NCBI RefSeq assembly: GCF_900141715.1
Contig: NZ_FQYK01000004.1
Span: 186,001-250,000, forward strand
DNA: 64,000 nt
Direction: 5' to 3'
DNA from: Algibacter luteus
GTDB lineage: Bacteria; Bacteroidota; Bacteroidia; Flavobacteriales; Flavobacteriaceae
Positions 17,472 to 60,446 of the stretch are shown here, one piece after another. The notes beneath the pieces are model-generated. The model had not been told where the DNA came from. It ran no database searches and saw nothing but the letters and a program-made list of their open reading frames with translations. Every line of letters starts with the position of its first letter. Within the stretch, counting starts at the first letter, position 1. The translations under genes and the position numbers were made by a program.

Positions 17472-20400
17472 ATGATTAAAAACGAAGTCAAAACAACGTG
17501 TTCATATTGTGGTGTAGGTTGCGGCATTATTGTTAAAAAAGATGCCAACAACAAAGTTTTTGTCGAAGGAGATAAGGACCACCCTGTAAACAAAGGCATG
17601 TTATGCTCTAAAGGTATGAATTTGCATTATGTAGCAAATGACGTGTCAGACAGAATTCTGTATCCAGAGATGCGTTGGAGTCGTTCACATCCTAGAGAGC
17701 GCGTGAGTTGGGACGATGCTTTAGATCGTGCTGCTAGTGTTTTTAAATCCATCATAAAAAAACACGGACCCGATAGTGTTGGGTTTTATGTATCTGGACA
17801 AAGTTTAACTGAAGAATATTACATTGCAAATAAACTTACCAAAGGTTTTATTGGAACAAATAATATAGATACAAATTCTCGCTTATGCATGAGCTCTGCT
17901 GTAGTGGGATATAAGAAAACTTTTGGTGAAGATAGTGTGCCAATTTCATATGCAGATATAGAACTTGCAGATACATTTTTAATCACTGGAGCAAATCCTG
18001 CTTGGTGCCATCCCATTTTGTTCAGAAGATTAGAAAAGCATAAAGAGGAAAATCCGAATGTTAAAATTATAGTTGTAGACCCTAGAAAAACGGATACTGC
18101 AAACTTCGCAGATATTCATTTACAATTGCTACCTGGAACCGATGTTGTTTTGTATAATGCCATTGCTAGATGCTTGTATAAACGAGGATTAATCGATGAA
18201 GATTTTATTAAAAATCATACAGATGGTTTTCAAGAATATAAAGATTTAATTTTCAAGACTTCTTTAAAGCAAGCTTCAAAAATATGTGGTGTTTCAGAAA
18301 AGGATATTCAAAAAGCAGCCGATACCATAGGGGTTTCCAAAGGATTTATTAGCATGTGGGCTATGGGGCTTAACCAAAGTGTGGTTGGTACAGATAAAAA
18401 TGTATCGCTTTTAAATTTATCATTAATAACAGGACAAGTTGGAAAACCGGGTTGCGGACCATTTTCTTTAACAGGACAGCCTAATGCTATGGGTGGTCGC
18501 GAAGTTGGTGGTATGGCCAATTTACTGGCAGTACACAAAGACCTAATGAATGAAGAACACCGTAGAGAAGTGGCTCAGTTTTGGGGCGTTGATAAAATCA
18601 ACCCAAAACCTGGGTTAACAGCTACTGAAATGTTTGATGCTTTAGAAAGCGGAAAACTTAAAGCGGTGTGGATTGCTTGTACTAATCCGCTAGTAAGCTT
18701 ACCAAACCTGAATAGGATTGAAAAAGCCATGGAAAACGCAAAGTTTGTGGTGGTTCAAGATATATCGCATAAATCGGATACGGTTGCTTTTGCAGATTTA
18801 GTGTTGCCAGCAGCTGGATGGTTAGAGAAAGAAGGAACTATGACAAATTCTGAAAGAAGAATTTCATATCTACCTAAAGAAATTGATGCTCCAGGAGAAG
18901 CAAGACCTGATGTTGAAATATTTTGTGATTTCGCAAAACGCATGGGCTTTAGAGGGTTTAATTTTAATAGTTCAAGCGAGATTTATGATGAATACGCTGC
19001 CATGACCAAAGGCACAAATATTGATGTGTCTTACTTAAATTACGACAGATTAAAAAATGAAGGTACGTTCCAGTGGCCAGTACCAGAGCATAGACATGAA
19101 GGAACGCCAAGACTTTTTCAGAATAAAAAGTTTTATACGGCTTCAGGGAATGCGAAATTTAATTTACCAAGTTCTATAGAGAATAATTCTGTTTTGCCAA
19201 ATGAAGACTTCCCATTAATTCTTACAACGGGTAGAGTTAGAGATCAATGGCATACCATGACCAAGACAGGAAAGGTATCACGTTTAAAAACTCATTACCC
19301 AACACCAGTTTTAGAAATTCATCCAGTAGATGCGTATTTGTACAAAATTAAAAATGGCGATATCACCGAAATTACTAGTGAAAACGGTGTGGTAAGAGTT
19401 CGAGCTAGTGTTACAGAAAATATCAAGAAAGGCGTGGTTTTTCTACCAATGCATTGGGGTAAGCAGTTGCAAAGTAATTTAAACAGAGCAAATAATTTAA
19501 CCAATACTCATGTAGATCCAGTATCTAAAGAACCTGATTTCAAGTTTACTAGAGTTTCAGTTTCAAAACATAAAAAGAAAGTAGAAAAAATTATAATCGC
19601 TGGGGCAGGAGCTGCGGCTTTTAGGTTTGTTCAAAACTATAGAGAACAAAATGAAACCGACGAAATACATGTGTTTTCAAAAGAGCCTAATTTATTTTAT
19701 AACAGAGTATTACTACCTGAGTATGTTACAGAAGAATTGTCTTGGGATGAACTCTTAAAAATAAAAGAGAAAGAGCTAAAAAAACTTAACATTCAATTAC
19801 ATCCTGAAACCTATTTAACAAAGGTTGATAAAACTCATAAAACGGTTACCGATAATACCGGTGAAACCCATCAATTTAACAAACTTATTTTAGCGACTGG
19901 AAGTCGCGCTTTCGTACCTAAGGATGTTCAAATAGATTTACCGGGTCGTTTTACCATGCGTAATAAAAGTGATGCGGATAGTTTTAAAGCTTATTTAGAG
20001 GCTACTAATTTACCTCCTGAAGAACAACATGTGGTAATTGTTGGTGGTGGCCTATTAGGATTAGAATTAGCTGCTGCCATGAAGCATAAAAACGCTAAAA
20101 TCACCATAGTGCAGCGAGGTTCACGTTTAATGGAACGTCAATTAGATTTGGTATCAAGTAAACTACTTGCGTTAGATGTTCAAGAAAGAGGCATTCAAAT
20201 TTATTTTGATAATGAAGTAAGCACCGTATTTGATGATGAGGATACGGGTGAATTAAACATTACCTTAAAGAGTGGAAAATTTATTACTGCCAACGCTATT
20301 GTTTATGCCATTGGGACTATTCCTAACGTAGAAATAGCCCGAGAAAACGGCATTTCTTGTAGAAGAGGGGTTATTGTTAATCAGCATTTACAATCTTCCC

Positions 20401-20993
20401 ATCCAGATATTTTTGCCATTGGTGAAATTGCAGAATACAACAATCAATTATTTGGAATTACATCGGCAGCTGAAGAGCAAGCTAATATTCTGGCAAATTT
20501 TATAGCGGGTGATATCAGTTGTGCTTATAACGGTTCAGTTTTAATGAATATTTTAAAGTTTAATGATCTTAACCTTTGCAGTATAGGTGAAATAAATGTT
20601 CCTGAAAATGATGATAGCTTTGAAGAAATAATATTTACCGATATTAAAAAGCGCTATTATAAAAAGTGTATTGTAAAAGACGATTTATTAATTGGTGCGG
20701 TTTTAATGGGGGATAAAAATGAATTTGCCGAATTTAAAACCATGATTGAAAGTAAGATTGAAATGGCCGAAAAGCGTGATAAGCTACTTCGAGGTTCGTC
20801 TAATGACGTTCCTGTTTTGGGTAAATTAGTCTGTTCATGTAGTCAAGTGGGTGCAGGAAATATAGAAGAAACCATTGCCAAAGGCTGTACCGATTTCACA
20901 GAATTATGTAATAAAACAGGTGCAGGATTAGGTTGTGGTAGTTGCAAAACAGAAGTTAGAGACATACTTCAAAATTCAAAAATTCTAGTATGA
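17472..20993 (+). CDS. Assimilatory nitrate reductase fused to NirB-like FAD module and BFD domain
   Basis: This 1173-residue cytoplasmic protein joins three parts. Residues 1-690 are a NasA/NapA-type molybdopterin subunit with 4Fe-4S ligands Cys10, Cys13, Cys17 and Cys45 and Mo-ligand Cys139 (RLCMSSA). Residues about 700-1110 are a pyridine-nucleotide/FAD oxidoreductase (IIIAGAGAAAFRF, VVIVGGGLLGLELA) resembling the NirB N-terminus. Residues about 1118-1173 are a BFD-like [2Fe-2S] domain (LVCSCSQVG, GLGCGSCKTEV). The fusion supplies its own NAD(P)H route, replacing a separate NasB-type subunit. It lacks a signal peptide. The next gene begins inside its last codons (TGATGA region), implying translational coupling with the rubredoxin protein. 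Confidence 0.93.
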   Translation: MIKNEVKTTCSYCGVGCGIIVKKDANNKVFVEGDKDHPVNKGMLCSKGMNLHYVANDVSDRILYPEMRWSRSHPRERVSWDDALDRAASVFKSIIKKHGPDSVGFYVSGQSLTEEYYIANKLTKGFIGTNNIDTNSRLCMSSAVVGYKKTFGEDSVPISYADIELADTFLITGANPAWCHPILFRRLEKHKEENPNVKIIVVDPRKTDTANFADIHLQLLPGTDVVLYNAIARCLYKRGLIDEDFIKNHTDGFQEYKDLIFKTSLKQASKICGVSEKDIQKAADTIGVSKGFISMWAMGLNQSVVGTDKNVSLLNLSLITGQVGKPGCGPFSLTGQPNAMGGREVGGMANLLAVHKDLMNEEHRREVAQFWGVDKINPKPGLTATEMFDALESGKLKAVWIACTNPLVSLPNLNRIEKAMENAKFVVVQDISHKSDTVAFADLVLPAAGWLEKEGTMTNSERRISYLPKEIDAPGEARPDVEIFCDFAKRMGFRGFNFNSSSEIYDEYAAMTKGTNIDVSYLNYDRLKNEGTFQWPVPEHRHEGTPRLFQNKKFYTASGNAKFNLPSSIENNSVLPNEDFPLILTTGRVRDQWHTMTKTGKVSRLKTHYPTPVLEIHPVDAYLYKIKNGDITEITSENGVVRVRASVTENIKKGVVFLPMHWGKQLQSNLNRANNLTNTHVDPVSKEPDFKFTRVSVSKHKKKVEKIIIAGAGAAAFRFVQNYREQNETDEIHVFSKEPNLFYNRVLLPEYVTEELSWDELLKIKEKELKKLNIQLHPETYLTKVDKTHKTVTDNTGETHQFNKLILATGSRAFVPKDVQIDLPGRFTMRNKSDADSFKAYLEATNLPPEEQHVVIVGGGLLGLELAAAMKHKNAKITIVQRGSRLMERQLDLVSSKLLALDVQERGIQIYFDNEVSTVFDDEDTGELNITLKSGKFITANAIVYAIGTIPNVEIARENGISCRRGVIVNQHLQSSHPDIFAIGEIAEYNNQLFGITSAAEEQANILANFIAGDISCAYNGSVLMNILKFNDLNLCSIGEINVPENDDSFEEIIFTDIKKRYYKKCIVKDDLLIGAVLMGDKNEFAEFKTMIESKIEMAEKRDKLLRGSSNDVPVLGKLVCSCSQVGAGNIEETIAKGCTDFTELCNKTGAGLGCGSCKTEVRDILQNSKILV

Positions 20994-22432
20994 TGAAGGA
21001 GCCATATAGATTACGAATAAATGGAGGTGTGTTATCACCAGGTGAGTTACATTACATTTGTGAAGCAGCCGAAGCTTTAGGTTTAGATGCCATTTCTTTT
21101 GGTTCCCGTCAAGATATTATTTTCCCAGAAGAAATTGATGAAAGTAAGTTTAGCCAGTTTAATAAAATTCAGTTTGTAAAACCTAAAAGAGATGGTGTAG
21201 AAAATATTTCTTCATCTTATGTTTCAGCTGAAATTTTACCAAGTACATCATGGTTAACTAGTGATCGTTATCTGTATGTTATAGAGCAGTTTAAACACAA
21301 TCCGAAGCTTCGTATTAATGTTATTGACCCCAAACAACGATTAGTACCGTTATTTACAGGAAATGTGAATTTTATTGCCTCAGAGCATGAAGATTATTGG
21401 TATTTATATTTAAGATTACCAGGTTGGGAAAAAACTAAAATGTATCCAGCTTTAATTTATAGCTGGGACATGGATAAGATAGAACTCGCAATTGAAAATA
21501 TATTAATTGAAGAACCAGAATCTATTGAAATGGTTTTTGATTTAGTTAGCGACGCTATTGATACTAACAATAGAACTGTCGATAAACCTTTAGAGGTGCC
21601 TTTTTATCCATTTCCGTATTACGAAGGCATGAATAGAATTGCTTCAGATAGGTATTGGTTAGGATTGTATTGGCGAAATAACCGATACGACTTAAAATTT
21701 CTGAAAGCCATGTGCGAGTTGTGTTCCGAAAATAAAATCGGAAAAATATCTATCACACCATGGAAATCATTTATTGTAAAAGGAATTCCGTTAGAATCAA
21801 AATTAAAATGGGAAAAACTCTTAGGAAAATTTGGTATTAATGTCCGCCATTCTATGTTAGAGATGAACTGGCATTTACCAGTAAATGATAAAGACGCATT
21901 AAATCTCAAAAAATATTTAGTGACCAATTTCGACCAAAATGATATCAGTACTTATGGTTTAACCTTCGGGATTACTAGTTATGATAGCGATACATATAAT
22001 TTTACTTCAATAGTAGTTGAAAAAAATAAAAAGCCTGAACAAATTGGTGATTTTAAAATAAGAGACACCTATAACTTACTGTATGCTAAGAATTTCGACC
22101 CGAATACGCAAGAATATATCATGCATGTTCAAGATGTTGATAAAGTGGAACTTCCAGGGTTGTTGATGGAATTGAGTCAGCTTTATTTTGAACAATTAGG
22201 AAACGAGCCTGAGCAAGAAACGGTTAAAACCATAATAAAAGAAACCACAGAAGAAGAAGTCTATCAATGCTCGGAATGTATGACAGTTTATAATGAGAGT
22301 TATGGCGATATTACTCAAGAAATTCTACCAAATACACCGTTTAAAAGTCTGCCTAACACGTACGAATGTTCGGTCTGTGATGCGCCTTTAAGCAGTTTCG
22401 AAAAGAAAATGTTAAAAACCAAAATGCGGTAA
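20990..22432 (+). CDS. Sulfite-reductase-like protein with C-terminal rubredoxin
   Basis: This 480-residue cytoplasmic protein begins with a ferredoxin-like half-domain of the nitrite/sulfite reductase type (YRLRINGGVLSPGELHYIC, then GLDAISFGSRQDIIF). It resembles that family again in the middle (KISITPWKSFIVKGIP). It ends in a rubredoxin with iron ligands Cys427, Cys430, Cys460 and Cys463. The siroheme/4Fe-4S Cys-x5-Cys and Cys-x3-Cys pairs are not visible, so it is unlikely to be a nitrite reductase. It overlaps the nitrate reductase stop by 4 bp. I infer that it is an electron-transfer partner or scaffold of that enzyme; some genomes annotate relatives simply as rubredoxin. Confidence 0.75.
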   Translation: MMKEPYRLRINGGVLSPGELHYICEAAEALGLDAISFGSRQDIIFPEEIDESKFSQFNKIQFVKPKRDGVENISSSYVSAEILPSTSWLTSDRYLYVIEQFKHNPKLRINVIDPKQRLVPLFTGNVNFIASEHEDYWYLYLRLPGWEKTKMYPALIYSWDMDKIELAIENILIEEPESIEMVFDLVSDAIDTNNRTVDKPLEVPFYPFPYYEGMNRIASDRYWLGLYWRNNRYDLKFLKAMCELCSENKIGKISITPWKSFIVKGIPLESKLKWEKLLGKFGINVRHSMLEMNWHLPVNDKDALNLKKYLVTNFDQNDISTYGLTFGITSYDSDTYNFTSIVVEKNKKPEQIGDFKIRDTYNLLYAKNFDPNTQEYIMHVQDVDKVELPGLLMELSQLYFEQLGNEPEQETVKTIIKETTEEEVYQCSECMTVYNESYGDITQEILPNTPFKSLPNTYECSVCDAPLSSFEKKMLKTKMR

Positions 22433-22435: not shown

Positions 22436-22525
22436 CTATTCGTCGACACTTAAATTCCAATTATCGTTAAAGACATTGCATTAAAAGAAAATCTAAAAAT
22501 AGGGAAGAAATCGGGAATACATTTG
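22436..22525 (+). promoter_or_regulatory. Tandem repeat array A and promoter
   Basis: The strong unit CTATTCGTCGACACTTA at 22436 is followed at 21-bp steps by weaker units at 22457 (CCAATTATCGTTAAAG) and 22478. The -7 element TACATTTG is at 22518-22525, 61 bp after the start of the middle unit and 40 bp before ATG 22558. The strong unit matches 14 of 17 bases of CCATTCGTCTACACTAA. Confidence 0.6.
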
Positions 22526-22557: not shown

Positions 22558-22860
22558 ATGAAAAATATATTACCAAGATTCCTTGTAAACTTTGCGAATA
22601 TTTTGTTTTACAATATTGCAAATCAAAAAACAGCAACTAATTTTGAATTAGAAGCAAATTCTTCTCACCAAAATGCTGATGAAATGCAACAATACTTAGT
22701 AAATAGGAATCTAAGACACATAGAATATATTAATCAACTTGAAAAACAGATTGAAGTTAGCCAAATTCAAGGATTTTCTCAAGATTTCTATGATGAGTTA
22801 AAATCATCAAAATTAATATGTAAAATAAACACTATTAATACAACTCGAAAAATCGCATAA
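22558..22860 (+). CDS. Small hypothetical protein under repeat array A
   Basis: A 100-residue frame from ATG 22558 (MKNILPRFLVNFANILFYNI), with a hydrophobic start and then a polar, Asn/Gln-rich helical part (QQYLVNRNLRHIEYINQLEKQIEV). I do not recognise it. The start could be a weak membrane anchor rather than a cleavable signal. The main support for it being real is position: repeat array A and a good -7 element lie upstream with almost the same distances as array B has to its gene. Confidence 0.5.
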   Translation: MKNILPRFLVNFANILFYNIANQKTATNFELEANSSHQNADEMQQYLVNRNLRHIEYINQLEKQIEVSQIQGFSQDFYDELKSSKLICKINTINTTRKIA

Positions 22861-22894: not shown

Positions 22895-22984
22895 CCATTC
22901 GTCGACACTTAATTACCATCTATCTACACTAATGGTTTATTTAACTTAATTAAAGTTTCTCACCAAGGAATAACCCTAACTTTA
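22895..22984 (+). promoter_or_regulatory. Tandem repeat array B and promoter of the H-NOX relay operon
   Basis: Two strong units, CCATTCGTCGACACTTA at 22895 and CCATCTATCTACACTAA at 22916, lie exactly 21 bp apart. A weak third is at 22937 (TTATTTAACTTAATT). The -7-like TAACTTTA (22977-22984) begins 61 bp after the second unit and 41 bp before ATG 23018. Because the operon encodes the LytTR regulator proposed to bind these repeats, this suggests autoregulation. Confidence 0.65.
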
Positions 22985-23017: not shown

Positions 23018-23428
23018 ATGAAAAATTTAAATATATTGTTAATTGAAGACGACATGATTGAAGTGATGAAATTGAATAGAACAATTTCATCGCTTAATTT
23101 AAATCATAATATTATTGAAGCCAATAACGGTGAAGATGCGTTGAAAATTTTAGAAAAAAAAGACCAATTACCAGACGTTATTTTGTTAGATTTGAATATG
23201 CCAAAAATTAACGGTATTGAGTTTTTGAAAATTTTGAAACAAGATAATGTTTTAAAGTATATCCCTACTATTATTTTAACAACTTCAAGTAATCAGCGAG
23301 ATTTATTAGAATGTTACGAAATAGGTATTGCAGGTTATGTGTTAAAGCCTTTGAAATATGAGGATTATATAACTAAAATTGAAAAATTATTGGCCTATTG
23401 GAGTATTAACGAACTAAAACAAGTTTAA
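23018..23428 (+). CDS. Stand-alone receiver domain (CheY-like) protein
   Basis: A 136-residue single receiver domain with acidic pocket Glu10-Asp11-Asp12, phosphoacceptor Asp58 (LLDLNMPKING), a Thr in LTTSSN and Lys in VLKPLKYEDY. It has no output domain, so it may act as a phosphate shuttle or sink between the kinase at 23967 and the HPt protein at 26444, or by protein contact. It is the first gene of a five-gene operon; its stop overlaps the H-NOX start (TAATG). Confidence 0.9.
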   Translation: MKNLNILLIEDDMIEVMKLNRTISSLNLNHNIIEANNGEDALKILEKKDQLPDVILLDLNMPKINGIEFLKILKQDNVLKYIPTIILTTSSNQRDLLECYEIGIAGYVLKPLKYEDYITKIEKLLAYWSINELKQV

Positions 23429-23967
23429 TGAAAGGTATTGTATTTACAGAGTTTTTAGAATTAGTAGAAGATAAATTTGGGTTAGAAATGGTTGATAAAA
23501 TCATTAATAATTCAGACTTAGAATCGAATGGAGTATATACGTCAGTAGGAACTTATAAGTTCTCTGAAATGTTACAATTACTTCAACATTTAAGTTCATA
23601 CACAGGCATTTCTATTGACGATTTATTGTTAGTATATGCAGAACATTTTTTTAGTGTTTTAGAGGAAAGTTATCCTGGGCTTTTGGCAACTTATAGCGAC
23701 CCAATTGAAATGATTTCCTCAATAGAAAATCATATTCATGTAGAAGTAAGAAAGATATACCCCGATGCTGAATTACCTTCTTTTGAAGTTGTTGAAAAAA
23801 CTGAAAACTCACTCATAATGATTTATAAATCAAGTAGAGCAATGCATCATTTTGGTTTGGGTTTAATGAATAAAACGTTCGAACATTTTAATTCAACAGC
23901 AACAATTGTTTTAGAGAATTTAAAAGAAGATGGTACAGAAGTTAAGTTTTTAATTAACAAAAATTAA
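23428..23967 (+). CDS. H-NOX (haem nitric oxide binding) sensor protein
   Basis: A 179-residue stand-alone H-NOX domain. The haem-binding YxSxR motif is Tyr133-x-Ser135-x-Arg137 (YKSSR). The proximal histidine is most likely His104 (IHVEVRKIYPDAELPSF), 29 residues before the Tyr as in the Thermoanaerobacter protein. The position of the distal Tyr that stabilises O2 in that protein is Phe142 here by the same offset, so this copy is predicted to favour NO over O2. H-NOX proteins encoded beside kinases typically regulate them when NO binds. The gene overlaps both neighbours by one base, directly ahead of the kinase. Confidence 0.92.
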   Translation: MKGIVFTEFLELVEDKFGLEMVDKIINNSDLESNGVYTSVGTYKFSEMLQLLQHLSSYTGISIDDLLLVYAEHFFSVLEESYPGLLATYSDPIEMISSIENHIHVEVRKIYPDAELPSFEVVEKTENSLIMIYKSSRAMHHFGLGLMNKTFEHFNSTATIVLENLKEDGTEVKFLINKN

Positions 23968-26447
23968 TGAGTCAAAACCAAATTGACATCTTACAGCGTG
24001 CACTCGCACGTGAAAAATCGGCCAGAAAACAGGCAGAAAAAATATTGGAAAGTAAATCTGCTGAATTATTCCAAGCTAGACAACTACTAGAAAAATCTTA
24101 CGCTGAATTAGAAGCTTTACTTAATAAAACAGACTCCCAACTCCAAGGTGTATTTGAGAATATTGTAGATCCTTACTTAATAATGGATTTAACAGGTAAT
24201 GTTTTAAAAATGAACAATGCCGCGGTAAGTTTATTTGGTTTTGAGAATGAAAAAGTAGATTTCAACCTCAATGATATGGTTTTTCCATCTGATATAAAGA
24301 AAGTAGTTAAATCTTTCGAAAACCTTATGAAGGACGGTATTTTAACTGATTTTGAAATTACTATAAAGAACAATATTAATGAAATAAAACTAGTACACGT
24401 CAATGCTAGTATTATTTATGAAAAGGGAGAAGCAGTTGCCGCACAAGGAATAATTAGAGATATCACAACGGTAAGAGAAAAAGAACTTGTTATTGAGGTT
24501 ATTAATGACATTGCTCAATCAATATTGGGGAAATTTGATATTTATGAAATAGCGTATCAAATTACAGATAAAATTGCTAAGTACTTAGAATCTCAAGATT
24601 GTGTCATTTATCTATATAATGACACGGACAATACACTCGAACAAATTTCGGCGTATGGTGAAAAATTGGATGAAAATAGCCAAATTGTAAATAAAATTGT
24701 TTTAAAAGAAGGCGTTGGTATTGTTGGCGCCGTAGCGAAATCTGGTAAGGCCGAAATTATTACTAATGCAGATTTAGACAAAAGATATGTAAAGGACATT
24801 GTGGAAAGAAAATCAGAAATCACAATTCCCATAATGATAGGAGATAAAGTACTTGGAATAATAGATTCAGAACATGAAGAAGAAAATTATTTCACCGAAA
24901 AGCATTTAAATATGCTTATGAGTATTGCCGGCATTGTTGCTTTGCAATTAAAAAGTGCTATCGATTTAAGAGAACGCAAAAAAGCTGAGGAGCAACTTAT
25001 AGAGTCGGAAAACAGGTTATCAGCTCTTATTTTAAATCTTGATAGTGGTGTTTTATTAGAGGATGAGAACAGAAAAATTGTGATTACAAACAAGAAATTT
25101 TGCGAGTTTTTTAATATTCCATTGTCACCAGAGTCGTTAATTGGTCAAGATTGTACAGAATCAGCAGAACAAAGTAAAGGTCTTTTTGAAAACCCTGAAG
25201 AATTTGTGAAAGGAATTGATCGATTATTAAGAAACCAAAAAGTTGTATTGGGTGAAGAACTCAAAATGGTTAATGGCAAAATACTAGAACGCGATTATAT
25301 TCCTATTTATGAAAACAAATTTTATAAAGGGCATTTATGGACCTATAGAGATGTAACTTTAAGAAGAAAATATCGTAAAAGTTTAGAGGCTCAAAGGCAA
25401 AAATATAGCAATATTATAGCAAATATGAACTTAGGCCTTATGGAGGTTGATCTTGATGATAAGATTTTAATGATTAATAATAGTTTTGCTGAAATGTCTG
25501 GTTACAAAGAAGAAGAAATAATCGGTAAAATTGCGAATGAAACTTTTACATTTGAAAAAAGCTCTGAAACTATAGTAAAAGAAAACAATAAACGTAAAAA
25601 AGGAATGGCCAATTCATACGAAGTTATTGTAAAAAGGAACGATGGAGAGCTGAGAAACTGGCTGGTGAGTGGAGCACCCAATTATAATTTAAATGGGGAA
25701 GTTATAGGGTCTATTGGTATTCATCTTGACATAACGGACATAAAAAATCTGCAGAAACAAAAAGAAAAACTAGTAAGAGATTTAGAAATTACAAATAACG
25801 AACTTCAAGAATATGCTCATATAGTTTCACACGATTTAAAATCACCATTAAGAAGCATTAATGCACTTGTATCTTGGTTAAAAGAAGATAACAAGGGGAA
25901 ACTGGATGACATAAGTATGCAAAATTTTGGACTAATTGAGACTACTCTTGAAAAAATGGAAAATCTAATTTCTGATATTCTCGAATACTCTAGCGTTGGA
26001 AGCGATTCATCAAAAAAGGAAAATGTAGATTTAAATGTGGTATTGTCTGAAATTATTCATCTTTTGCACATCCCAGAGCACATAAAATTAGAAATTTTAA
26101 AACCATTACCTACAATAACGGGTGATAGTACCATGTTACAGCAGGTGTTTCAAAATATAGTTGGTAATGCCATTCGTTACATGGATAAGAATCAAGGATT
26201 AATTCAGATTGATTTTAAAAATCAAAAATCATTTTACGAATTTTCGATTAAAGATAACGGTATGGGTATTGATAAGAAATATCATGATAAAATTTTTAAG
26301 ATATTTCACTCTTTAAACAAAAGTAAAGATTCTACAGGTATTGGCTTATCAATAGTTAAAAAGATAGTAGAAATTCATAAAGGAAAAGTTTGGTTAGATT
26401 CTGAACCAGGTGTTGGTACAACATTTTATTTTACACTTAAAAAATGA
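23967..26447 (+). CDS. Soluble PAS/GAF sensor histidine kinase
   Basis: An 826-residue kinase without evident transmembrane segments. In order: N-terminal coiled coil (1-55), PAS (about 55-170), GAF (about 175-340, ending near VALQLKSAIDL), two further PAS domains (about 350-470 and 480-600), a dimerisation helix with phosphoacceptor His622 (VSHDLKSPLRS), and a HATPase domain (NIVGNAIRYM, DNGMGIDKKYHDKIF, STGIGLSIVKKI). It has no receiver domain of its own. Cytoplasmic location and coupling to the H-NOX gene suggest that the kinase is controlled by H-NOX, with the GAF and PAS domains adding further inputs. It overlaps the HPt gene by 4 bp (ATGA). Confidence 0.92.
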   Translation: MSQNQIDILQRALAREKSARKQAEKILESKSAELFQARQLLEKSYAELEALLNKTDSQLQGVFENIVDPYLIMDLTGNVLKMNNAAVSLFGFENEKVDFNLNDMVFPSDIKKVVKSFENLMKDGILTDFEITIKNNINEIKLVHVNASIIYEKGEAVAAQGIIRDITTVREKELVIEVINDIAQSILGKFDIYEIAYQITDKIAKYLESQDCVIYLYNDTDNTLEQISAYGEKLDENSQIVNKIVLKEGVGIVGAVAKSGKAEIITNADLDKRYVKDIVERKSEITIPIMIGDKVLGIIDSEHEEENYFTEKHLNMLMSIAGIVALQLKSAIDLRERKKAEEQLIESENRLSALILNLDSGVLLEDENRKIVITNKKFCEFFNIPLSPESLIGQDCTESAEQSKGLFENPEEFVKGIDRLLRNQKVVLGEELKMVNGKILERDYIPIYENKFYKGHLWTYRDVTLRRKYRKSLEAQRQKYSNIIANMNLGLMEVDLDDKILMINNSFAEMSGYKEEEIIGKIANETFTFEKSSETIVKENNKRKKGMANSYEVIVKRNDGELRNWLVSGAPNYNLNGEVIGSIGIHLDITDIKNLQKQKEKLVRDLEITNNELQEYAHIVSHDLKSPLRSINALVSWLKEDNKGKLDDISMQNFGLIETTLEKMENLISDILEYSSVGSDSSKKENVDLNVVLSEIIHLLHIPEHIKLEILKPLPTITGDSTMLQQVFQNIVGNAIRYMDKNQGLIQIDFKNQKSFYEFSIKDNGMGIDKKYHDKIFKIFHSLNKSKDSTGIGLSIVKKIVEIHKGKVWLDSEPGVGTTFYFTLKK

Positions 26448-26767
26448 TACAAGAAACCCCGAATTTAAATTATATCGAAAAGTTATCTGGCGGTGATTTG
26501 ACATTTCAGGAAAAACTTATTGGTATTATTAAAACAGAATTTCCTGAAGAGAAAGAAATATACCTTAATAATATTGAATCCAGAAATTTTAAAGAAGCTT
26601 CTGAGATTGTACACAAACTTAAACATAAAATTAGTATTTTAGGGCTTGAAAAAAGTTACGAAGTTGCTGCCAATTTTGAAAATAGTTTATTGGAGAATAG
26701 AGCAGAAGGTAAAGCAGATTTTGAAAATATTTTAAAATCTATTACCAACTTTTTAGCTACTCTATAA
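26444..26767 (+). CDS. Histidine phosphotransfer (HPt) protein
   Basis: A 107-residue all-helical protein with the HPt signature around His57 (EIVHKLKHKISILG) and the following helix containing GLEKSYEVAANFENSLL. HPt proteins carry phosphate from one receiver to another. Its place between the kinase (4-bp overlap) and the LytTR regulator (9 bp gap) implies a multistep relay: kinase His622, receiver Asp58 of the 23018 protein, HPt His57, LytTR Asp53. The order of transfer is inferred from gene content only. Confidence 0.85.
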   Translation: MIQETPNLNYIEKLSGGDLTFQEKLIGIIKTEFPEEKEIYLNNIESRNFKEASEIVHKLKHKISILGLEKSYEVAANFENSLLENRAEGKADFENILKSITNFLATL

Positions 26768-26776
26768 TTTTATTTT

Positions 26777-27502
26777 ATGAATTGTATAATTATTGATGAT
26801 GAAGCTACGGCTAGGGCTATAATAGGCCAATTATGCTCAAATTTTAAAAATCTTGATGTAGTAGAAGAATTTCCCAATGCCATTCAAGCCATTAAATATT
26901 TAAATCAGAACAAAGTTGATTTAATACTACTTGATATTCATATGCCTGATTTTACAGGGTTTGATTTTATTGCCACTTTAAAAAATCCTCCTAAAATTAT
27001 ATTAACAACTTCAGATCCTCAATTTGCGATACAAGCTTTTGAATATGAATGTATTGTTGACTATTTGGTAAAGCCTATTGAGTTAGCACGTTTTGAAAAG
27101 GCAATTCAAAAAGCTGAATCTGTGGCTGCTAAACCTGTTAAAAATGTGGAAACTGTAAATGCTTCTGCTGGAAGTGTCGAAACTTCTTCTGGTAACGATT
27201 TATATGTAAATATTGATCGACGGCTTATTAAAATTGACATCCCTAGTATTTATTTAGTTGAAGCCAAAGGTGATTACATAAATGTAAAAACTGAAGAAAA
27301 GAATTATACCGTTCATTCTACCTTAAAAAAAATAGAGGATAAATTGCCTAGCGATTTATTCTTAAAAGTACACAGATCTTTTATTATAAATACTAAGAAA
27401 ATAATAGACATTGAAGATAATAGTGTGCTCATAAAAAAAGACGTGATTCCTGTTAGTCGTGCTAATCGTCCGGAGTTGATGAAACGTTTAAATTTGCTGT
27501 AG
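26777..27502 (+). CDS. LytTR-family response regulator
   Basis: A 241-residue regulator: receiver (1-120) with Asp7-Asp8 and phosphoacceptor Asp53 (LLDIHMPDFTG), a low-complexity linker (about 122-140), and a C-terminal LytTR DNA-binding domain (LYVNIDRRLIKIDIPSIYLV, VHSTLKKIEDKL, FLKVHRSFIIN, VPVSRANRPELMKRLNLL). LytTR domains bind tandem direct repeats on one DNA face. The 21-bp-period arrays at six promoters around this operon are therefore its natural candidate targets, including array B before its own operon. It is the last gene of the operon; no strong terminator follows. Confidence 0.93.
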   Translation: MNCIIIDDEATARAIIGQLCSNFKNLDVVEEFPNAIQAIKYLNQNKVDLILLDIHMPDFTGFDFIATLKNPPKIILTTSDPQFAIQAFEYECIVDYLVKPIELARFEKAIQKAESVAAKPVKNVETVNASAGSVETSSGNDLYVNIDRRLIKIDIPSIYLVEAKGDYINVKTEEKNYTVHSTLKKIEDKLPSDLFLKVHRSFIINTKKIIDIEDNSVLIKKDVIPVSRANRPELMKRLNLL

Positions 27503-27623: not shown

Positions 27624-27692
27624 CCATTCGTCTGCACTAAATTCGACTCTATCGAAATATTAGCTTTATCCTATTGTTTAAAATTAATTTTG
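27624..27692 (+). promoter_or_regulatory. Tandem repeat array C and promoter
   Basis: The strong unit CCATTCGTCTGCACTAA at 27624 matches the consensus at 16 of 17 positions. A second unit 21 bp on (27645) shares TCTATCGA with the TCTATCTA core of array B. The -7 element TAATTTTG (27685-27692) begins 61 bp after the strong unit and 26 bp before ATG 27711. Confidence 0.65.
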
Positions 27693-27710
27693 TGGCAAAT
27701 ATTTTATGTT

Positions 27711-30299
27711 ATGAAAATATTAGCACAACTTTTAATTTTAATAGGTTTTATAGTAAATGCGCAAGACACACCATTTAATTGCAATAATAATGCCTATTTA
27801 TTTCAGTATAACGATGTTTATGCCGTTGATTTAGCTTCGGGAAATTCATATTTGGCTCATGCCGATGTTACCCCGGGTAATATTAATGCTACAGCATACA
27901 ATCCTGCCGATGGTTATATTTGGGGGTCATTAAGTTCACCATCAAAAACTATCGTTCGTATTGGGCAAAACTTTGAAACCACAACGTTATATATAGATGA
28001 ATTACCGACAAATAATCGTTATGTAGGTGATGTTAGTGCAGAAGGTATTTATTATTTAAAGGGAGGAGGGTCAACTTATTATAAAGTAAACCTTAATCCC
28101 GAATCTGCCAATTATGGTGAGTTTATTTCGTCTGAAACGTTATCACAAAACATTAGTATTCATGATTGGGCATTTAATGCAGTTGATGGGAATTTATATG
28201 CTTTAGAGAAAAACACAAATATTTTATATAGAATTAACCCCGTAACAAGCGAAGTTCAAGCTTTAGGAGTTGTTCCTGTTTTATCTGGTTTAAATTATAC
28301 TTATGGAGCGGTTTATTTTGATGCCTCAGGACGTTTTTATGCCTCGGCAAACCAAACAGGAACTATCTATGTTATTCAAGCCGTTCAAGATTTAAATGGC
28401 CAAAATACTATCGAATCTAATTTATTTGCTTTCGGACCAGCCAGTTCACAGAATGATGGGGCACGTTGTCCTAGCGCTGCTGTACCACAAGAAGATTGTG
28501 ATAACGGAATTGATGATGATGGCGATGGATTAATTGATTGCGAAGATCCTTCATGTTCTGGTTATTCAAGCTGTCCAGTTATTGAAATCACATCCACTTC
28601 TAGTGCAAATCTGGGAGGTTTAGAGAGTAATAATAGGTTATCTCAACAAGTTAGTAAGCGTAACTTTGGTCGTGCCAAAACCGGCTATATATTTGACCAA
28701 AGTGCCGCAAAAAAATTAACCAAAACCCCGAACTACGGCAAACATTATGCTCAAAGAGGTGGTCTGACTCAATTATCTGATTTTATTCCTTTAGAAGTTA
28801 TTAATGAAGAACTTGTAGTTGAATCATCTCCAACGGATTTGATAGGTATTACAAATGCTACCGAGGTTTATTCAGTGGATTATATTAAAAATGAAGAAGC
28901 CGTAGCATCTATTTTAGTGCTTAAAACAGATCGAGGTGTTTATGAACACACCAAATATATCTGCGACAGATTACTAGGCGCACAATTAATTTCTGTTTCA
29001 AACATAGAAATTAAAGGGCAAAATTTTATTAAAGCTTTAATTAGGAATATTGATGGTTCGTTAGAATTTGTATTAAGTTTATCTGCGAAAGCCATAAATA
29101 ATGATTCTGAGTTTGGTATTGAAAGCCATTGGAATTTAGATAAATACACCAGTAAGAATGGATATTATAATTTCCAGATATGGTCCAATTCTTTAGATGA
29201 TTTATTGTTATTAGGTGAAGAGGTATTACATCTATTAGAAGTACAAAAACCAATAACAAATTATAACAATTCTTCACCACCCACTGTATTTGTTAGAAAA
29301 GGAAAATACCACAATGGTAAATTAGATTTACAAATAGTAAATACCAACAGAACAGCATCCGTAGCTTTTGATGGCGGAGTTCGTTCAACCGAGACCGATA
29401 TTGTAGAAACCGTTTCATCTAGTATCGCATTAAATGGTAATTACATTTCAAATTTAGAAGTAGATGCAGGTAATTTGTTTGACATAGGATTTAGAATCGG
29501 TGATGGTTTAAACACTCCTGACGATTTATTTATGTCGGACGGTCCATGGGGTTATGATGATGCTGCGATAACAACCAATGTTACTTCCTACACTGTAGAA
29601 TCTAATAGTTCTAGTTTTGATGAAAATGTTTACTCAATAGAGCGTAACATCAATCTAGAAGCGACAACCAGTGAGTATATTGCTGCGTACAGAGCCTTAA
29701 CTCCAAAGTTTAATGCTATAAATTTAACAGCTTTTAATAGCTTTAATTTTACAGCAAAAGGGACAGGTATATTAATACTCAGATTAGTAAAAGAAAGTGT
29801 AACCAATTGGGAGCAACAATATAGAACAAGTATAGAATTAACTCCTGAGTTTAAAAATTTCAGTATCCCGTTTTTAGATTTTAAAACGTTGGATGGAAGC
29901 TCAATTGAAGTTTCAGATGTTACCTCTATAGTTTTTACTATGCTTGCAGAAAATGGAGAAGTTGAAACTAAAACCATGACTTTAGAGCAACTTTATTTCT
30001 CTAATAATATTTTATTATCTGTAACTCCAAGTTTAACAGAAAATACGATTGATGTCGTAGCAATACCAAACCCTATGACAACTCAAACAACGATTCAATT
30101 TACAGCAGCAAATACAGAAACTGTTAAGCTTTTGGTTTATAATCAAGTAGGACGTTTAGTAAAAGAGCTAGAGGTGAATTCACAAAAAGGCCTAAACGAG
30201 GTCATTTTAAAACGAGAAAAATTAAGTTCAGGGATCTATTTCTGTAATATAATAAGCAATCAAACCAATTATAAAACCACAAAATTACTCCTAGATTAA
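27711..30299 (+). CDS. Secreted surface protein with T9SS sorting domain
   Basis: From ATG 27711 this 862-residue protein starts with a signal peptide (MKILAQLLILIGFIVNAQ). Next is a region of about 240 residues that reads like a repeat-propeller (ATAYNPADGYIWG, AFNAVDGNLYALE). Then come an Asp-rich calcium-type loop (CDNGIDDDGDGLIDCEDPSC), a central domain of unknown fold, and a beta-rich segment resembling a carbohydrate-binding module (FTAKGTGILILRLV). It ends in a type A T9SS sorting domain (IPNPMTTQTTIQF, VYNQVGRLVKE, SSGIYFCNI, TTKLLLD). It is exported through the outer membrane and probably surface-bound. Its promoter carries repeat array C, linking it to the relay. An upstream start at 27690 would disrupt the signal peptide. 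Confidence 0.85.
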   Translation: MKILAQLLILIGFIVNAQDTPFNCNNNAYLFQYNDVYAVDLASGNSYLAHADVTPGNINATAYNPADGYIWGSLSSPSKTIVRIGQNFETTTLYIDELPTNNRYVGDVSAEGIYYLKGGGSTYYKVNLNPESANYGEFISSETLSQNISIHDWAFNAVDGNLYALEKNTNILYRINPVTSEVQALGVVPVLSGLNYTYGAVYFDASGRFYASANQTGTIYVIQAVQDLNGQNTIESNLFAFGPASSQNDGARCPSAAVPQEDCDNGIDDDGDGLIDCEDPSCSGYSSCPVIEITSTSSANLGGLESNNRLSQQVSKRNFGRAKTGYIFDQSAAKKLTKTPNYGKHYAQRGGLTQLSDFIPLEVINEELVVESSPTDLIGITNATEVYSVDYIKNEEAVASILVLKTDRGVYEHTKYICDRLLGAQLISVSNIEIKGQNFIKALIRNIDGSLEFVLSLSAKAINNDSEFGIESHWNLDKYTSKNGYYNFQIWSNSLDDLLLLGEEVLHLLEVQKPITNYNNSSPPTVFVRKGKYHNGKLDLQIVNTNRTASVAFDGGVRSTETDIVETVSSSIALNGNYISNLEVDAGNLFDIGFRIGDGLNTPDDLFMSDGPWGYDDAAITTNVTSYTVESNSSSFDENVYSIERNINLEATTSEYIAAYRALTPKFNAINLTAFNSFNFTAKGTGILILRLVKESVTNWEQQYRTSIELTPEFKNFSIPFLDFKTLDGSSIEVSDVTSIVFTMLAENGEVETKTMTLEQLYFSNNILLSVTPSLTENTIDVVAIPNPMTTQTTIQFTAANTETVKLLVYNQVGRLVKELEVNSQKGLNEVILKREKLSSGIYFCNIISNQTNYKTTKLLLD

Positions 30300-32592: not shown

Positions 32593-32662
32593 TCATTCAC
32601 CTACAGTAAACCGCCACTCGTCGAAATTCAGACGAATTCCATTGATTCATAAGAGATATTTG
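32593..32662 (+). promoter_or_regulatory. Tandem repeat array D in a divergent promoter region
   Basis: Units lie at 32593 (TCATTCACCTACAGTAA, 13 of 17), 32614 (CCACTCGTCGAAATTCA, 12 of 17) and 32635 (AATTCCATTGATTCA, weak), 21 bp apart. The -7-like GATATTTG (32655-32662) begins 62 bp after the first unit and precedes the STAS gene. The exporter-like gene starts 46 bp away in the other direction, so the array may serve both. Confidence 0.55.
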
Positions 32663-32703: not shown

Positions 32704-32982
32704 ATGTCACTTACTATTAAAGAAAACAACGGAATATTTTTGGTACAAGGTTCTATAAATACTAAAACCATAGTGCAATTTAAAAATCATTTAGAATTCT
32801 TATTACTTTACAAAAAGAACTTAACTATTGATATTGATGGCGTTAGTGCCATTGACCGAATGGGAATGAATGCTATAAAAACTTTAAATAGTATGGCATT
32901 AACTCATAAAAAATCATTCGATATTGTTGGATATGGTTGTAAAGCCATTTATGAAGATATTTTAGAAAGTCATTCAGCCTAA
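32704..32982 (+). CDS. STAS-domain protein
   Basis: A 92-residue stand-alone STAS domain similar to anti-sigma-factor antagonists (LTIDIDGVSAIDRMGMNAIKTL). In SpoIIAA the loop reads DSSG and carries the phosphorylated serine. Here it reads DRMG, so the usual serine switch is absent and it may act by binding alone. It is followed 30 bp later by the flippase gene, in one transcript. A partner kinase or phosphatase is not visible in the window. Confidence 0.8.
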   Translation: MSLTIKENNGIFLVQGSINTKTIVQFKNHLEFLLLYKKNLTIDIDGVSAIDRMGMNAIKTLNSMALTHKKSFDIVGYGCKAIYEDILESHSA

Positions 32983-33012: not shown

Positions 33013-34260
33013 ATGCAAATTTTAGCCACATTAAAATCGAGAAAAATTTCACCGGAGCAATTATTTATGCTTAGTGTTTTAGCCGTAAATGGCGGGAATT
33101 ATTTATATAATTTAATTCTTGGTCGTTTGTTGGGTCCTGCACAGTTTGCAGATGCCGCTGTACTTATTACTTTTTTATTGGTTCTAAGTTTTGCAGCCAT
33201 GACATTTCAGTTAGTAACTGCAAAGTTTTCAGTGCTTTTTGAAAATGACATTTTTAAAAGTTTCATATCTAAAATATATAAAAACGCTCTTGTAGTAGGT
33301 CTTGTTATGGGAACGCTAATAGTTGTTTTTGCAGGACAATTACAAACTTTATTCAATACATCGTCTTCAAATATGTTTGTAATATTTGGATGTGGTGTGC
33401 CACTTTATTTTTTAATGAGTGTTAATCGCGGTGTTTTTCAAGGCAAGAAAGCCTTTAAGTCTTTATCGATAACCTATCAAGGTGAAATGTTAAGCCGTTT
33501 AGTAATTACATTAGGTCTTATTTTACTGTTTAATATTCAATCTTCGTTTGTCATTGCGGTTGGTATATTAACGTCTTTTTTATTCGGATTAATTCCGTTT
33601 AAATTTCCAACGTTAATTCCGAAGAAAGCTTTACAATTAAGTGAAACACATTCAAAAGCTATAAAAAGTTTCTTTCTTATTACGGCGTTTTACGAATTAA
33701 CCCAAATCATAATAAACAATAGTGATATCCTTTTAGTTAAACATTATTTTGAGTCTTATGAGGCAGGTTTATACGCATCCTTAGCATTAATTGGTAGAAT
33801 AGTTTATTTCATAGCTTGGATGTTTGTTATGCTATTGTTACCTACTGTAGTTCAATTAAAAAAAGAAGGAAAAGAAACGGCATCAACGTTATTCAAATAT
33901 GTTGGATACATTGCTGCCATTTCAACAACTATTGTAGTGGTTTGTTTAAGTTTTCCTGAAACAATTATAACTTTATTGTTTGGTGATAGTTATTTAGCAA
34001 TGGCGCCGTTATTGTGGCAATATGCTATAGCAACTTCAATGTTCGCCATTTCTAACATTTTCGCATACTATTATTTGTCTTTAGATAAATATGTGCCAGT
34101 AATTATTTCTGGTGTATTTGGAATGCTTCAAATGGGACTAGTCATATTTTATCATGAGAGTTTAGAACAAGTTGTGCATATGCAAATTATAGCGATGGTA
34201 TTATTATTAATTATTCAACTTGTATTTTTTAAATTAAATCAATCTGAGAAAATAACTTAA
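33013..34260 (+). CDS. Wzx/MOP-like polysaccharide flippase
   Basis: A 415-residue inner-membrane protein with about 12 transmembrane segments in the MOP/MATE-like polysaccharide exporter pattern (NYLYNLILGRLLGPAQFADA near the N-terminus, then VNRGVFQGKKAFKSLSITYQGEMLSRL and NNSDILLVKHYFESYEAGLYASLALIGR, each quoted only in part here). Members move lipid-linked glycans across the inner membrane. It is cotranscribed with the STAS gene. Other flippase-like roles are possible, but the surrounding glycosyltransferases favour glycan transport. Confidence 0.8.
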   Translation: MQILATLKSRKISPEQLFMLSVLAVNGGNYLYNLILGRLLGPAQFADAAVLITFLLVLSFAAMTFQLVTAKFSVLFENDIFKSFISKIYKNALVVGLVMGTLIVVFAGQLQTLFNTSSSNMFVIFGCGVPLYFLMSVNRGVFQGKKAFKSLSITYQGEMLSRLVITLGLILLFNIQSSFVIAVGILTSFLFGLIPFKFPTLIPKKALQLSETHSKAIKSFFLITAFYELTQIIINNSDILLVKHYFESYEAGLYASLALIGRIVYFIAWMFVMLLLPTVVQLKKEGKETASTLFKYVGYIAAISTTIVVVCLSFPETIITLLFGDSYLAMAPLLWQYAIATSMFAISNIFAYYYLSLDKYVPVIISGVFGMLQMGLVIFYHESLEQVVHMQIIAMVLLLIIQLVFFKLNQSEKIT

Positions 34261-34274: not shown

Positions 34275-34344
34275 CCATTCGTCTACACTAAAAAGTAATC
34301 TAACTAAGGTAGTCAGAATTTTAAAACAATAATCCCCAAATTTG
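34275..34344 (+). promoter_or_regulatory. Tandem repeat array E and promoter
   Basis: The unit CCATTCGTCTACACTAA at 34275 is the best copy in the window. The next unit at 34296 (TAATCTAACTAAGG) keeps the TCTAnCTA core, and a weak one may start at 34254. The -7-like CAAATTTG (34337-34344) begins 62 bp after the strong unit and 31 bp before ATG 34368. Confidence 0.65.
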
Positions 34345-34367: not shown

Positions 34368-35588
34368 ATGAAATTAGCAATAGTAACAGCATATCCACCA
34401 AGTAAGGTAACATTAAACGAATATGCATACCATTTAGTAAAGCAGTTTAGACAAAAAGAAGCTGTAACCGAATTAATCTTGTTAACAGACAAGACTGAAG
34501 ATGCCAAAGATTTAGAATTTACAGAAGCAGGTTGTAAAATAACGGTTAAAGAATGCTGGTCTTTTAATAGCTATAAAAACATATTAAGTGTTACAAAAGC
34601 AATTAACGTTACAAAACCAGATTCAGTTCTATTTAATTTACAATTTATGAAGTTTGGTGATAAAAAAATAGCTGCTGCATTAGGCCTAATGTTGCCTTTG
34701 GTTTGTAAACTAAAGCGTATTCCAAATATTGTTTTATTACATAATATTTTAGAAGAAGTAGATTTAGGAAGTGCTGGTTTTACTAGTAATAAGTTGATGC
34801 AAAAAATTTACGGATTTATTGGATCTACCTTAACAAGATTGATTTTACAGGCCGATACGGTTGCAGTTACAATGCAAAAATACGTTGATATATTAGAAAA
34901 GAAATACCATGCGAAAAACGTAAAATTAATTCCTCATGGAACTTTTGAAGTAACAGATGTATTACCAGAATATAATTTACCTAAAGGACCATTACAAGTG
35001 ATGACTTTTGGAAAATTTGGAACGTATAAGAAAGTAGAAGGGATGATTGAAGCGGTTGAAAAAGTTAGAGCAAAAACTGGTTTAGATTTAGAAGTTGTTA
35101 TTGCAGGAACCGATAATCCGAATGTTCCTGGATATTTAGCTCAAGTTCAAGAAGATTACAAACACGTTCCTCAAGTAAGGTTTACAGGTTATGTTGAAGA
35201 ATACGAAGTGCCAATTTTATTTAAAGAAAGTGCTGTAGTCGTATTTCCATATACATCAACAACAGGAAGTTCTGGAGTTTTACACCAAGCCGGAAGTTAT
35301 GGTAAAGCAGTAGTGATGCCAGACTTAGGAGATTTAGCTTTATTGGTTAAAGATGAAGGTTATAGAGGTGAGTTTTTTGAGCCTACATCTGTAGATAGTT
35401 TAGCCGATGCCATTGAAGCTATTGTAACTAATGATGCTTATCGAGTGGAATTAGGAAAAACAAATTACGAAGCTGCAACAGCTTACCCAATGGAAAAAAT
35501 TGCAGAAATGTACTTAAATACGTTTTATGATATTATCGTAAAAAAATCAAAGCTTAGCGGAAACATTAGGAAGGAAGCTATTCTTTAG
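34368..35588 (+). CDS. GT4-type glycosyltransferase
   Basis: A 406-residue cytoplasmic GT-B glycosyltransferase. The N-terminus MKLAIVTAYPPSKVTLNEYA and the C-terminal nucleotide-sugar site (VVFPYTSTTGSSGVLHQAGSYGKAVVMPD) are typical of family GT4. No signal peptide is present. It is monocistronic behind array E. It converges with the glycosidase gene, and their last 11 bp overlap. The sugar specificity cannot be read from sequence. Confidence 0.85.
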   Translation: MKLAIVTAYPPSKVTLNEYAYHLVKQFRQKEAVTELILLTDKTEDAKDLEFTEAGCKITVKECWSFNSYKNILSVTKAINVTKPDSVLFNLQFMKFGDKKIAAALGLMLPLVCKLKRIPNIVLLHNILEEVDLGSAGFTSNKLMQKIYGFIGSTLTRLILQADTVAVTMQKYVDILEKKYHAKNVKLIPHGTFEVTDVLPEYNLPKGPLQVMTFGKFGTYKKVEGMIEAVEKVRAKTGLDLEVVIAGTDNPNVPGYLAQVQEDYKHVPQVRFTGYVEEYEVPILFKESAVVVFPYTSTTGSSGVLHQAGSYGKAVVMPDLGDLALLVKDEGYRGEFFEPTSVDSLADAIEAIVTNDAYRVELGKTNYEAATAYPMEKIAEMYLNTFYDIIVKKSKLSGNIRKEAIL

Positions 35589-41457: not shown

Positions 41458-41548
41458 TTATTTATCTACACAAATCTACCATCCGTCTACAGTTACTTAT
41501 GGGTTAAACTAAATAAAAATTTTAAAACAACCTTCAAATGTACTTTTG
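41458..41548 (+). promoter_or_regulatory. Tandem repeat array F and promoter
   Basis: Two clear units, TTATTTATCTACACAAA at 41458 (12 of 17) and CCATCCGTCTACAGTTA at 41479 (14 of 17), lie 21 bp apart. A weak third unit starts at 41500-41501. The perfect -7 element TACTTTTG (41541-41548) begins 62 bp after the second unit and 47 bp before ATG 41588. The divergent operon starting at 41395 is 62 bp away on the other side. Confidence 0.65.
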
Positions 41549-55411: not shown

Positions 55412-55484
55412 TATTGTTATTTGTTTAGGTGTTTGTTGTTTAGATGTTATCGACTTAAAGTCAATCAGCTAAACAAGATACATT

Positions 55485-55931: not shown

Positions 55932-55938
55932 TTTGACA

Positions 55939-57821: not shown

Positions 57822-57822
57822 T

Positions 57823-58563: not shown

Positions 58564-58564
58564 T

Positions 58565-58903: not shown

Positions 58904-58905
58904 AT

Positions 58906-60084: not shown

Positions 60085-60139
60085 ATTATTTTTTCGTTAT
60101 ATCCTAGCAAATATAACGAATTGATTTTTTATTTTAACA

Positions 60140-60151
60140 TGACATTCGTCA
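60140..60151. promoter_or_regulatory. Possible Crp/Fnr-family operator between moeA and napD
   Basis: TGACATTCGTCA is a perfect dyad (TGAC, four bases, GTCA), as expected for a Crp/Fnr-family regulator. Its centre is 63 bp before the napD start. With activation at about -41 this would place the napD transcript start near 60187. Such regulators commonly control Nap expression under low oxygen or nitrogen oxides. Confidence 0.45.
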
Positions 60152-60208
60152 GTTTATTTTTTGCTAAATTGATTGAGATTTACGGTTTTATAAAATAATG
60201 AAAATTTT

Positions 60209-60445: not shown

Positions 60446-60446
60446 T

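Follow-up and report, generated by a model that had tools for sequence, protein, structure and literature searches.

An H-NOX operon encoding a candidate phosphorelay to a LytTR regulator, with putative targets in an adjacent polysaccharide-type cluster of Algibacter luteus

The stretch of DNA considered here (the window) comprises 64,000 nt of Algibacter luteus contig NZ_FQYK01000004.1 (assembly GCF_900141715.1; positions 186,001–250,000, forward strand). It carries a five-gene operon in which an H-NOX haem sensor is encoded together with a stand-alone receiver (REC), a histidine kinase (HK), a histidine phosphotransfer protein (HPt) and a LytTR response regulator. A tandem repeat precedes the operon and related sites lie upstream of several neighbouring genes; the genes, their residues and order, the sites and their co-occurrence across genomes are read directly from the sequence. 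On balance it is probable that a kinase governed by nitric oxide (NO) and H-NOX feeds an HK-REC-HPt-LytTR relay controlling both its own operon and the adjacent polysaccharide genes.

The operon and its conservation

The five open reading frames (ORFs) lie on the + strand with overlaps or with gaps of at most 9 bp (positions are those of the window):

23018–23428, +: stand-alone receiver (REC); Response_reg E=5.2e-23; Asp58; proposed HK-to-HPt intermediate
23428–23967, +: H-NOX haem sensor; HNOB E=4.7e-40; His104, Y133-S135-R137, Phe142, Ala71
23967–26447, +: histidine kinase; PAS, GAF, HisKA and HATPase_c; conserved N-terminal coiled-coil-like stretch; His622
26444–26767, +: HPt phosphotransfer protein; Hpt E=5.3e-5; His57
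26777–27502, +: LytTR response regulator; Response_reg and LytTR, both over cut-off; Asp53

The ORF list and the Pfam matches agree with the five overlapping or nearly abutting genes described in an earlier note on this DNA. The residues named there (Asp58, His104, the YxSxR motif, His622, His57 and Asp53) are all intact, and the PAS and GAF domains that it assigned to the kinase were recovered. The HNOB domain scores 137.6 bits against a curated cut-off of 25.5. All four acceptors of a relay are present (His622 in the kinase, Asp58 in REC, His57 in HPt and Asp53 in the LytTR regulator), and the kinase has no receiver match, i.e. it is of the non-hybrid type. Within the genome (3,376,148 bases) H-NOX occurs as a single copy, HPt has two Pfam matches of which the second is partial, and five LytTR domains were matched. 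No GGDEF match was found in the genome; EAL was not searched for.

Conservation was assessed in named Flavobacteriaceae loci, the best 80 of 524 confirmed relatives, with H-NOX identities of 80–92 %. Five H-NOX residues (His104, Tyr133, Ser135, Arg137 and Phe142) are invariant in 81/81 sequences, the window included. Likewise, Asp58 of REC and His57 of HPt are each invariant in 80/80, and Asp53 of the LytTR regulator in 77/77 where counted. Phe142 is located five residues past the Arg of YxSxR, which we take, from the Cs H-NOX numbering, to be the distal Tyr position; that Phe stands there, as had been proposed, therefore holds throughout the set under this numbering. Without a distal Tyr, the protein is predicted to belong to the NO-selective H-NOX class, which forms no stable O2 complex.

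The earlier note had also suggested comparing gene order in other Flavobacteriaceae. The complete order REC-H-NOX-HK-(FIST-HK2)-HPt-LytTR is present in 75/80 named loci. In 51 of these 75, HK and HPt are separated by a FIST (NosP-like) gene and the gene of a further, short kinase; the other 24 lack this insertion and resemble the window. Overall a FIST gene is found in 53/80 loci (FIST_N and FIST_C were confirmed in the three examples scanned), and no FIST match exists in the genome of the window. Three of the named loci are interrupted by contig ends (L062, L085 and L089). The kinase gene adjoins hnoX in 80/80, and REC and HPt are each retained in the operon in 79/80. Kinase length ranges from 403 to 826 aa, with little change in the N-terminal 45 residues or in the catalytic core. 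The closest named locus belongs to a Flaviramulus metagenome-assembled genome (H-NOX 92 % identical). Judged by gene order, the genes from REC to LytTR form an operon conserved at the level of the family, in most cases with a FIST-kinase pair as a putative second input.

That the arrangement is a one-genome curiosity is ruled out by the 75 complete loci. As for mobile replicons, the LytTR regulator matched 319 plasmid records, every one at less than 60 % identity.

Beyond the Flavobacteriaceae, 20 H-NOX loci were compared, from 19 of 65 H-NOX-positive genomes in other Bacteroidia families. A single locus (L172) has the full seven-gene operon; a site with 2 mismatches precedes its REC gene, and a DUF6923 gene is the next gene after the operon. 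The other 19 have H-NOX and a kinase in a different arrangement and lack any site at ≤2 mismatches.

One of the extra-family loci (L161) has H-NOX followed by a 950-aa kinase and then a LytTR regulator, possibly an independent H-NOX-LytTR link.

A tandem repeat of LytTR type

Upstream of the operon, CCATTCGTCGACACTTAA is repeated in tandem every 21 bp. Eighty promoters were compared with CCATTCGTCKACACTTAA: that of the window and those of the 79 named loci in which REC is present. At the best match 61 of them differ from it by ≤2 mismatches; shuffled sequences reach 4 at best. When these 61 promoters are aligned, period 21 gives a match of 0.719, and other lags between 15 and 31 give at most 0.346. 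The CGAA of a third copy is in register at +50 in 44/61. Additionally, a -7-like box, its motif being presumed, is located 80–83 nt past the first repeat in 29/61 promoters versus 2 in shuffled sequence, a spacing that suggests an activator-like geometry.

The 80 loci, 1.39 Mb in all, contain 125 sites with ≤2 mismatches, against 0 for the reversed pattern. Of the 125, 122 are intergenic and 121 precede a gene on their own strand by no more than 300 bp. Direct repeats of about 21-bp period are found at putative targets as well as at the operon. Published LytTR direct repeats are of the form 9 bp - 12 bp - 9 bp, with a spacer of mostly 12 bp (PMC6193735). The 21-bp direct-repeat spacing fits a LytTR regulator as the predicted binder.

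Within the whole A. luteus genome only four sites occur at ≤2 mismatches, all inside the window, with 0 for the reversed control; this confinement rules out a repeat of general occurrence in flavobacteria. At ≤3 mismatches the window has five matches versus 0.02 expected, and five were reached in 0/100 shuffles. At the same threshold the genome has four matches outside the window, and the count on forward and reverse strands (9) is at the level of the reversed-pattern control (6). Sites with 3 mismatches are therefore counted only with support from position or matrix.

The scoring matrix was trained on 60 promoters of other species. It ranks 22895, 34275, 32593, 22436, 41458 and 27624 first as promoters, with scores from 55.7 to -0.4. 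The maxima of six shuffles were -18.2 to -11.1, below all six. At the level of sites, the mismatch search and the matrix together support the claim that recognizable candidate targets lie beside the relay. The sites are:

22895–22933, +: tandem site in the operon promoter (copies at 22895 and 22916); 0 mismatches; matrix score 55.7
22436–22453, +: site upstream of the small ORF at 22558; 1 mismatch; score 12.9
27624–27641, +: site upstream of the DUF6923 protein; 2 mismatches; score -0.4, which exceeds all shuffle maxima
32593–32631, +: degenerate tandem site upstream of the STAS and flippase genes; score 15.2; across species the weakest of the six
34275–34292, +: site upstream of the GT4 gene; 1 mismatch; score 22.6
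41458–41496, +: tandem site between the divergent genes 38306 (-) and 41588 (+); score 11.4; copy at 41479 with 3 mismatches

Linkage across the family

Linkage between sites and H-NOX was surveyed in 397 Flavobacteriaceae genomes, of which 146 carry H-NOX and 251 do not. Sites at ≤2 mismatches are present in 109/146 H-NOX-positive versus 55/251 H-NOX-negative genomes, and two or more sites in 74/146 versus 9/251. The reversed-pattern control is equal in the two groups (means of 0.15 and 0.16, respectively). Distances to H-NOX were taken from H-NOX-positive genomes only: among the sites listed, 86 of 113 (from 47 such genomes) lie within 40 kb of it.

A family-wide search for a 1029-aa membrane-type protein, encoded divergently from the site at 41458, served as the unpicked test of cluster linkage. 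This protein occurs in 101/146 H-NOX-positive versus 8/251 H-NOX-negative genomes. Where it shares a contig with H-NOX it lies within 50 kb in 84/86 cases, at a median of 17 kb.

Ten genomes with the larger locus were examined by promoter; these were selected for linked sites or long contigs and are a non-random sample. A site upstream of REC at ≤1 mismatch is present in 9/10. Sites at ≤3 mismatches occur upstream of the DUF6923 homologue in 8/9, beside the 1029-aa gene in 7/9 and upstream of the STAS homologue in 1/9; at ≤2 mismatches a site precedes the best GT4 homologue in 6/10.

Two pairs of genomes separate the components of the pathway. In the first (G346 and G171; loci L145 and L148), the LytTR gene is unlinked from the H-NOX operon and lies with a second REC of its own near nitrate-type genes. 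Sites with 0 and 1 mismatch are found at the LytTR loci, and the H-NOX operon promoters are at chance level, with best matches of 7 and 7 mismatches. In the second pair (G115 and G310; loci L158 and L159) H-NOX is absent, and REC-HK-HPt-LytTR remain together with sites. The kinase N-terminus has diverged in both (identity 0.31 and 0.42 versus a minimum of 0.51 in 80 H-NOX-positive loci), with the core undiverged (0.62 and 0.63). From these two H-NOX-less loci only, the N-terminal stretch is read as a candidate H-NOX contact.

Putative target genes

The genes next to the sites, and those adjoining them, are:

22558–22860, +: small ORF (100 aa) with a site on either side; no Pfam match; a similar ORF in 1/80 loci
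27690–30299, +: DUF6923 protein with Por_Secre_tail, a sorting tail of type IX secretion system (T9SS) type; in 56/80 named loci
32704–32982, +: STAS-domain protein
33013–34260, +: flippase-like Polysacc_synt_3 protein
34368–35588, +: GT4-type glycosyltransferase (Glycos_transf_1)
35578–37095, -: glycoside-hydrolase-2 (GH2)-like protein
37089–38306, -: protein with only a sub-cut-off Invasin_D3 match
38306–41395, -: conserved 1029-aa membrane-type protein, tightly linked to H-NOX
41588–42772, +: receiver-GT2 glycosyltransferase fusion; Asp51 and Lys102 present
42799–43287, +: short GT2-like protein
43303–44271, +: mannose-6-phosphate isomerase (ManA); over the NCBIfam cut-off

The flippase, GT4, GT2, ManA and GH2-like proteins suggest that the cluster next to the operon is of polysaccharide type; an exopolysaccharide would be its likely product. 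The receiver-GT2 fusion, with its Asp51, may be a directly phospho-regulated sugar transferase and may form a second output of the relay. No relative of this fusion was present in the viral contigs searched.

Proposed mechanism and alternatives

In the proposed pathway NO would bind at the H-NOX haem, and H-NOX would contact the N-terminal coiled-coil-like stretch of the kinase and thereby alter autophosphorylation at His622. Because the kinase lacks a receiver and both REC and HPt are encoded alone, we infer that HK-REC-HPt-LytTR is the only complete route, with phosphate passing from His622 to Asp58 of REC, to His57 of HPt and to Asp53 of the LytTR regulator, and perhaps also to Asp51 of the glycosyltransferase fusion. 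The LytTR regulator would then act on the tandem 21-bp-spaced repeats, activating its own operon, the adjacent polysaccharide-type genes and the T9SS-type protein. If the systems of Shewanella and Vibrio are a guide, the kinase would be switched off by NO and expression lowered. The predicted action of LytTR on the repeats is held with more confidence than the NO step or its sign.

The sign is the part most exposed to an alternative. NO may instead increase phosphate flow and polysaccharide output through the same relay, as NO-bound NosP of Legionella stimulates its kinase and biofilm of Shewanella is raised by NO (PMC8738867). The inhibitory analogy points the other way, and the stimulatory outcome is regarded as possible, though the less expected of the two.

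A branched chain, or one running in the phosphatase direction, is rather unlikely. REC would in this case drain off phosphate or have an output of its own, with HPt serving other kinases. Consistent with it, REC, HPt and LytTR are separate proteins, two kinases would feed one HPt in most relatives, and a second REC lies beside the relocated LytTR of G346 and G171. It is countered by the near-universal retention of REC and HPt in the operon (79/80 each) and by their persistence after loss of H-NOX (L158 and L159), both of which sit better with a linear relay through REC and HPt.

It is also unlikely, somewhat more so, that H-NOX is mainly a sensor of redox state, oxygen or another ligand, with relay and output unchanged. 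A heme-free H-NOX of V. cholerae responds to oxidation (PMC8738867), and the genome has neither a NirK match nor an NO reductase among its COX1-family matches. Against this stand the invariance of His104 and YxSxR and of Phe142 in place of the distal Tyr (81/81 each), the closeness to the Kordia H-NOX used in gas-binding simulations, and the adjoining nitrate and nitrite reductase genes, all of which are more in keeping with NO.

That the repeats are bound by a different regulator, with the co-located LytTR acting elsewhere, is quite improbable: the genome has four further LytTR-domain matches besides this one and LytTR binding at the repeats is a prediction, yet the 21-bp spacing fits LytTR, the sites accompany LytTR and not H-NOX in G346 and G171, and outside the family the 19 relay-less H-NOX loci lack a ≤2-mismatch site that the full-operon locus has.

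Several observations weigh against control of the cluster by the H-NOX relay as a whole. The window HPt, at 23.8 bits, falls just short of the curated Pfam threshold (24.6), which its Kordia orthologue passes with 30.7, and two of the 80 loci (L074 and L107) have no adjacent LytTR. The window promoter has no obvious third CGAA copy. At ≤2 mismatches 37 of the 146 H-NOX-positive genomes carry no site, and the 55 H-NOX-negative genomes noted above do. The best match before REC in G338 has 4 mismatches, and the promoters of GT4, the receiver-GT2 fusion and above all STAS have no site in some genomes. The 1029-aa protein is on a separate contig from H-NOX in 15/101 genomes and far from it in 2, and its structure prediction has a mean pLDDT (predicted confidence score) of 36.9. 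A polymerase was not identified among the sugar-cluster genes. Finally, the genomes in the family counts are related, so that p-values from them are not independent tests.

Relation to known systems

The closest working analogue is the HnoX-HahK-SypF(HPt)-SypG/SypE system of Vibrio fischeri with its syp locus (PMC12369376, PMC8738867). In both, H-NOX is encoded beside a kinase and an HPt relays, or would relay, the signal to a transcription factor of polysaccharide genes. In V. fischeri the HPt forms part of SypF, a kinase, and SypG is the regulator, whereas in the window REC, HPt and LytTR are separate genes within the H-NOX operon; LytTR-type repeat sites and, in most relatives, the FIST-kinase pair are further differences. 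The earlier note had regarded as unfamiliar a relay ending in a LytTR transcription factor with recognizable targets next door. The intact acceptors, the LytTR end point and the neighbouring sites uphold this in part, but an H-NOX signal that travels by way of an HPt to a transcription factor and polysaccharide genes is already known from V. fischeri.

The HnoB/HnoD/HnoC network of Shewanella oneidensis shares an H-NOX-regulated kinase, a branched output and, through HnoC, feedback on the hno genes (PMC8738867). Its main output is hydrolysis of cyclic di-GMP (c-di-GMP), whereas the genome of the window has no GGDEF match (with EAL not searched). The H-NOX-HqsK-LuxU systems of Vibrio harveyi and Vibrio parahaemolyticus likewise have an H-NOX-controlled kinase that passes to a stand-alone phosphotransfer protein (PMC6769237, PMC8738867); their output is quorum sensing with LuxO, in place of which the window has a LytTR regulator. 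Tandem-repeat LytTR regulators also have direct repeats of 21-bp period upstream of their own operons, but those described are membrane-inhibitor systems and the LytTR regulator of the window is of phosphorelay type (PMC6193735). The Kordia algicida H-NOX (PDB 6bdd, 6bde), for which a structure and a gas-binding simulation are available (PMC7356049), is 83 % identical and is encoded in the same operon plus FIST-HK2 (L078). A survey of gene neighbourhoods has recorded FIST genes close to hnoX (PMC8738867).

No description of the operon was found among the titles and abstract openings listed from an open-licence library, where only two papers, one of them PMC6769237, contain both H-NOX and LytTR; an earlier account of the Kordia operon in subscription papers is possible. 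What appears new is an operon complete in itself, in which REC, HPt and LytTR each have a gene of their own, together with a tandem site and putative targets. To this may be added a FIST protein as a likely second input on the same HPt, and an apparent absence of synthesis of c-di-GMP, the messenger in many known H-NOX systems.

More speculatively, Flavobacteriaceae might exercise c-di-GMP-free NO control of the biofilm matrix, in which an H-NOX-kinase and, in most relatives, a FIST-kinase (two haem-type inputs) merge on one HPt hub, with outputs through LytTR transcription of polysaccharide genes and a post-translationally controlled receiver-glycosyltransferase. This extension is doubtful at present; if true, the HPt shared by the two kinases would serve as a model for the integration of two gas sensors in one relay. 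For a large group of marine bacteria, the narrower pathway would connect a haem gas sensor to surface-polysaccharide genes in a concrete way that is open to test, and it does so in a genome where no GGDEF match was found. It is made testable by the site, the targets and the two natural experiments (LytTR moved, H-NOX lost).

Nitrate and nitrite genes near the operon

The operon had been described as lying beside nitrate and nitrite reduction genes, a source of NO. The position is real. NirB and NirD matches near the operon in the window are over cut-off, and NapA is over one of two cut-offs (946.3 vs 904; 897.9 vs 930.55). A NarK-like match is just below its cut-off (307.2 vs 311.7) and a NasC-like match well below (551.7 vs 1100). 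The source is less secure: no match to the copper nitrite reductase NirK was found in the genome, and its two COX1-family matches are both oxidases (cbb3 over cut-off; aa3-like, 527.8 vs 670.75), with no NO reductase among them. Thus a classical denitrification source of NO is not seen, cd1 NirS not having been searched for. NO may arise as a by-product of nitrite reduction or be supplied by neighbours.

Several features of this region are of separate note. A nitrate-reductase-like protein is fused to a NirB-like FAD/BFD part at 17472–20993, and the overlapping gene at 20990–22432 joins a nitrite/sulfite reductase half domain to rubredoxin. A NarX/UhpB-type kinase (12185–13999) and a NarL-type regulator (14441–15109) are also encoded, all of their NCBIfam matches being sub-cut-off. 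At 53493–63482, molybdenum-cofactor genes adjoin those of a periplasmic nitrate reductase resembling NapA and of a small protein of multihaem type.

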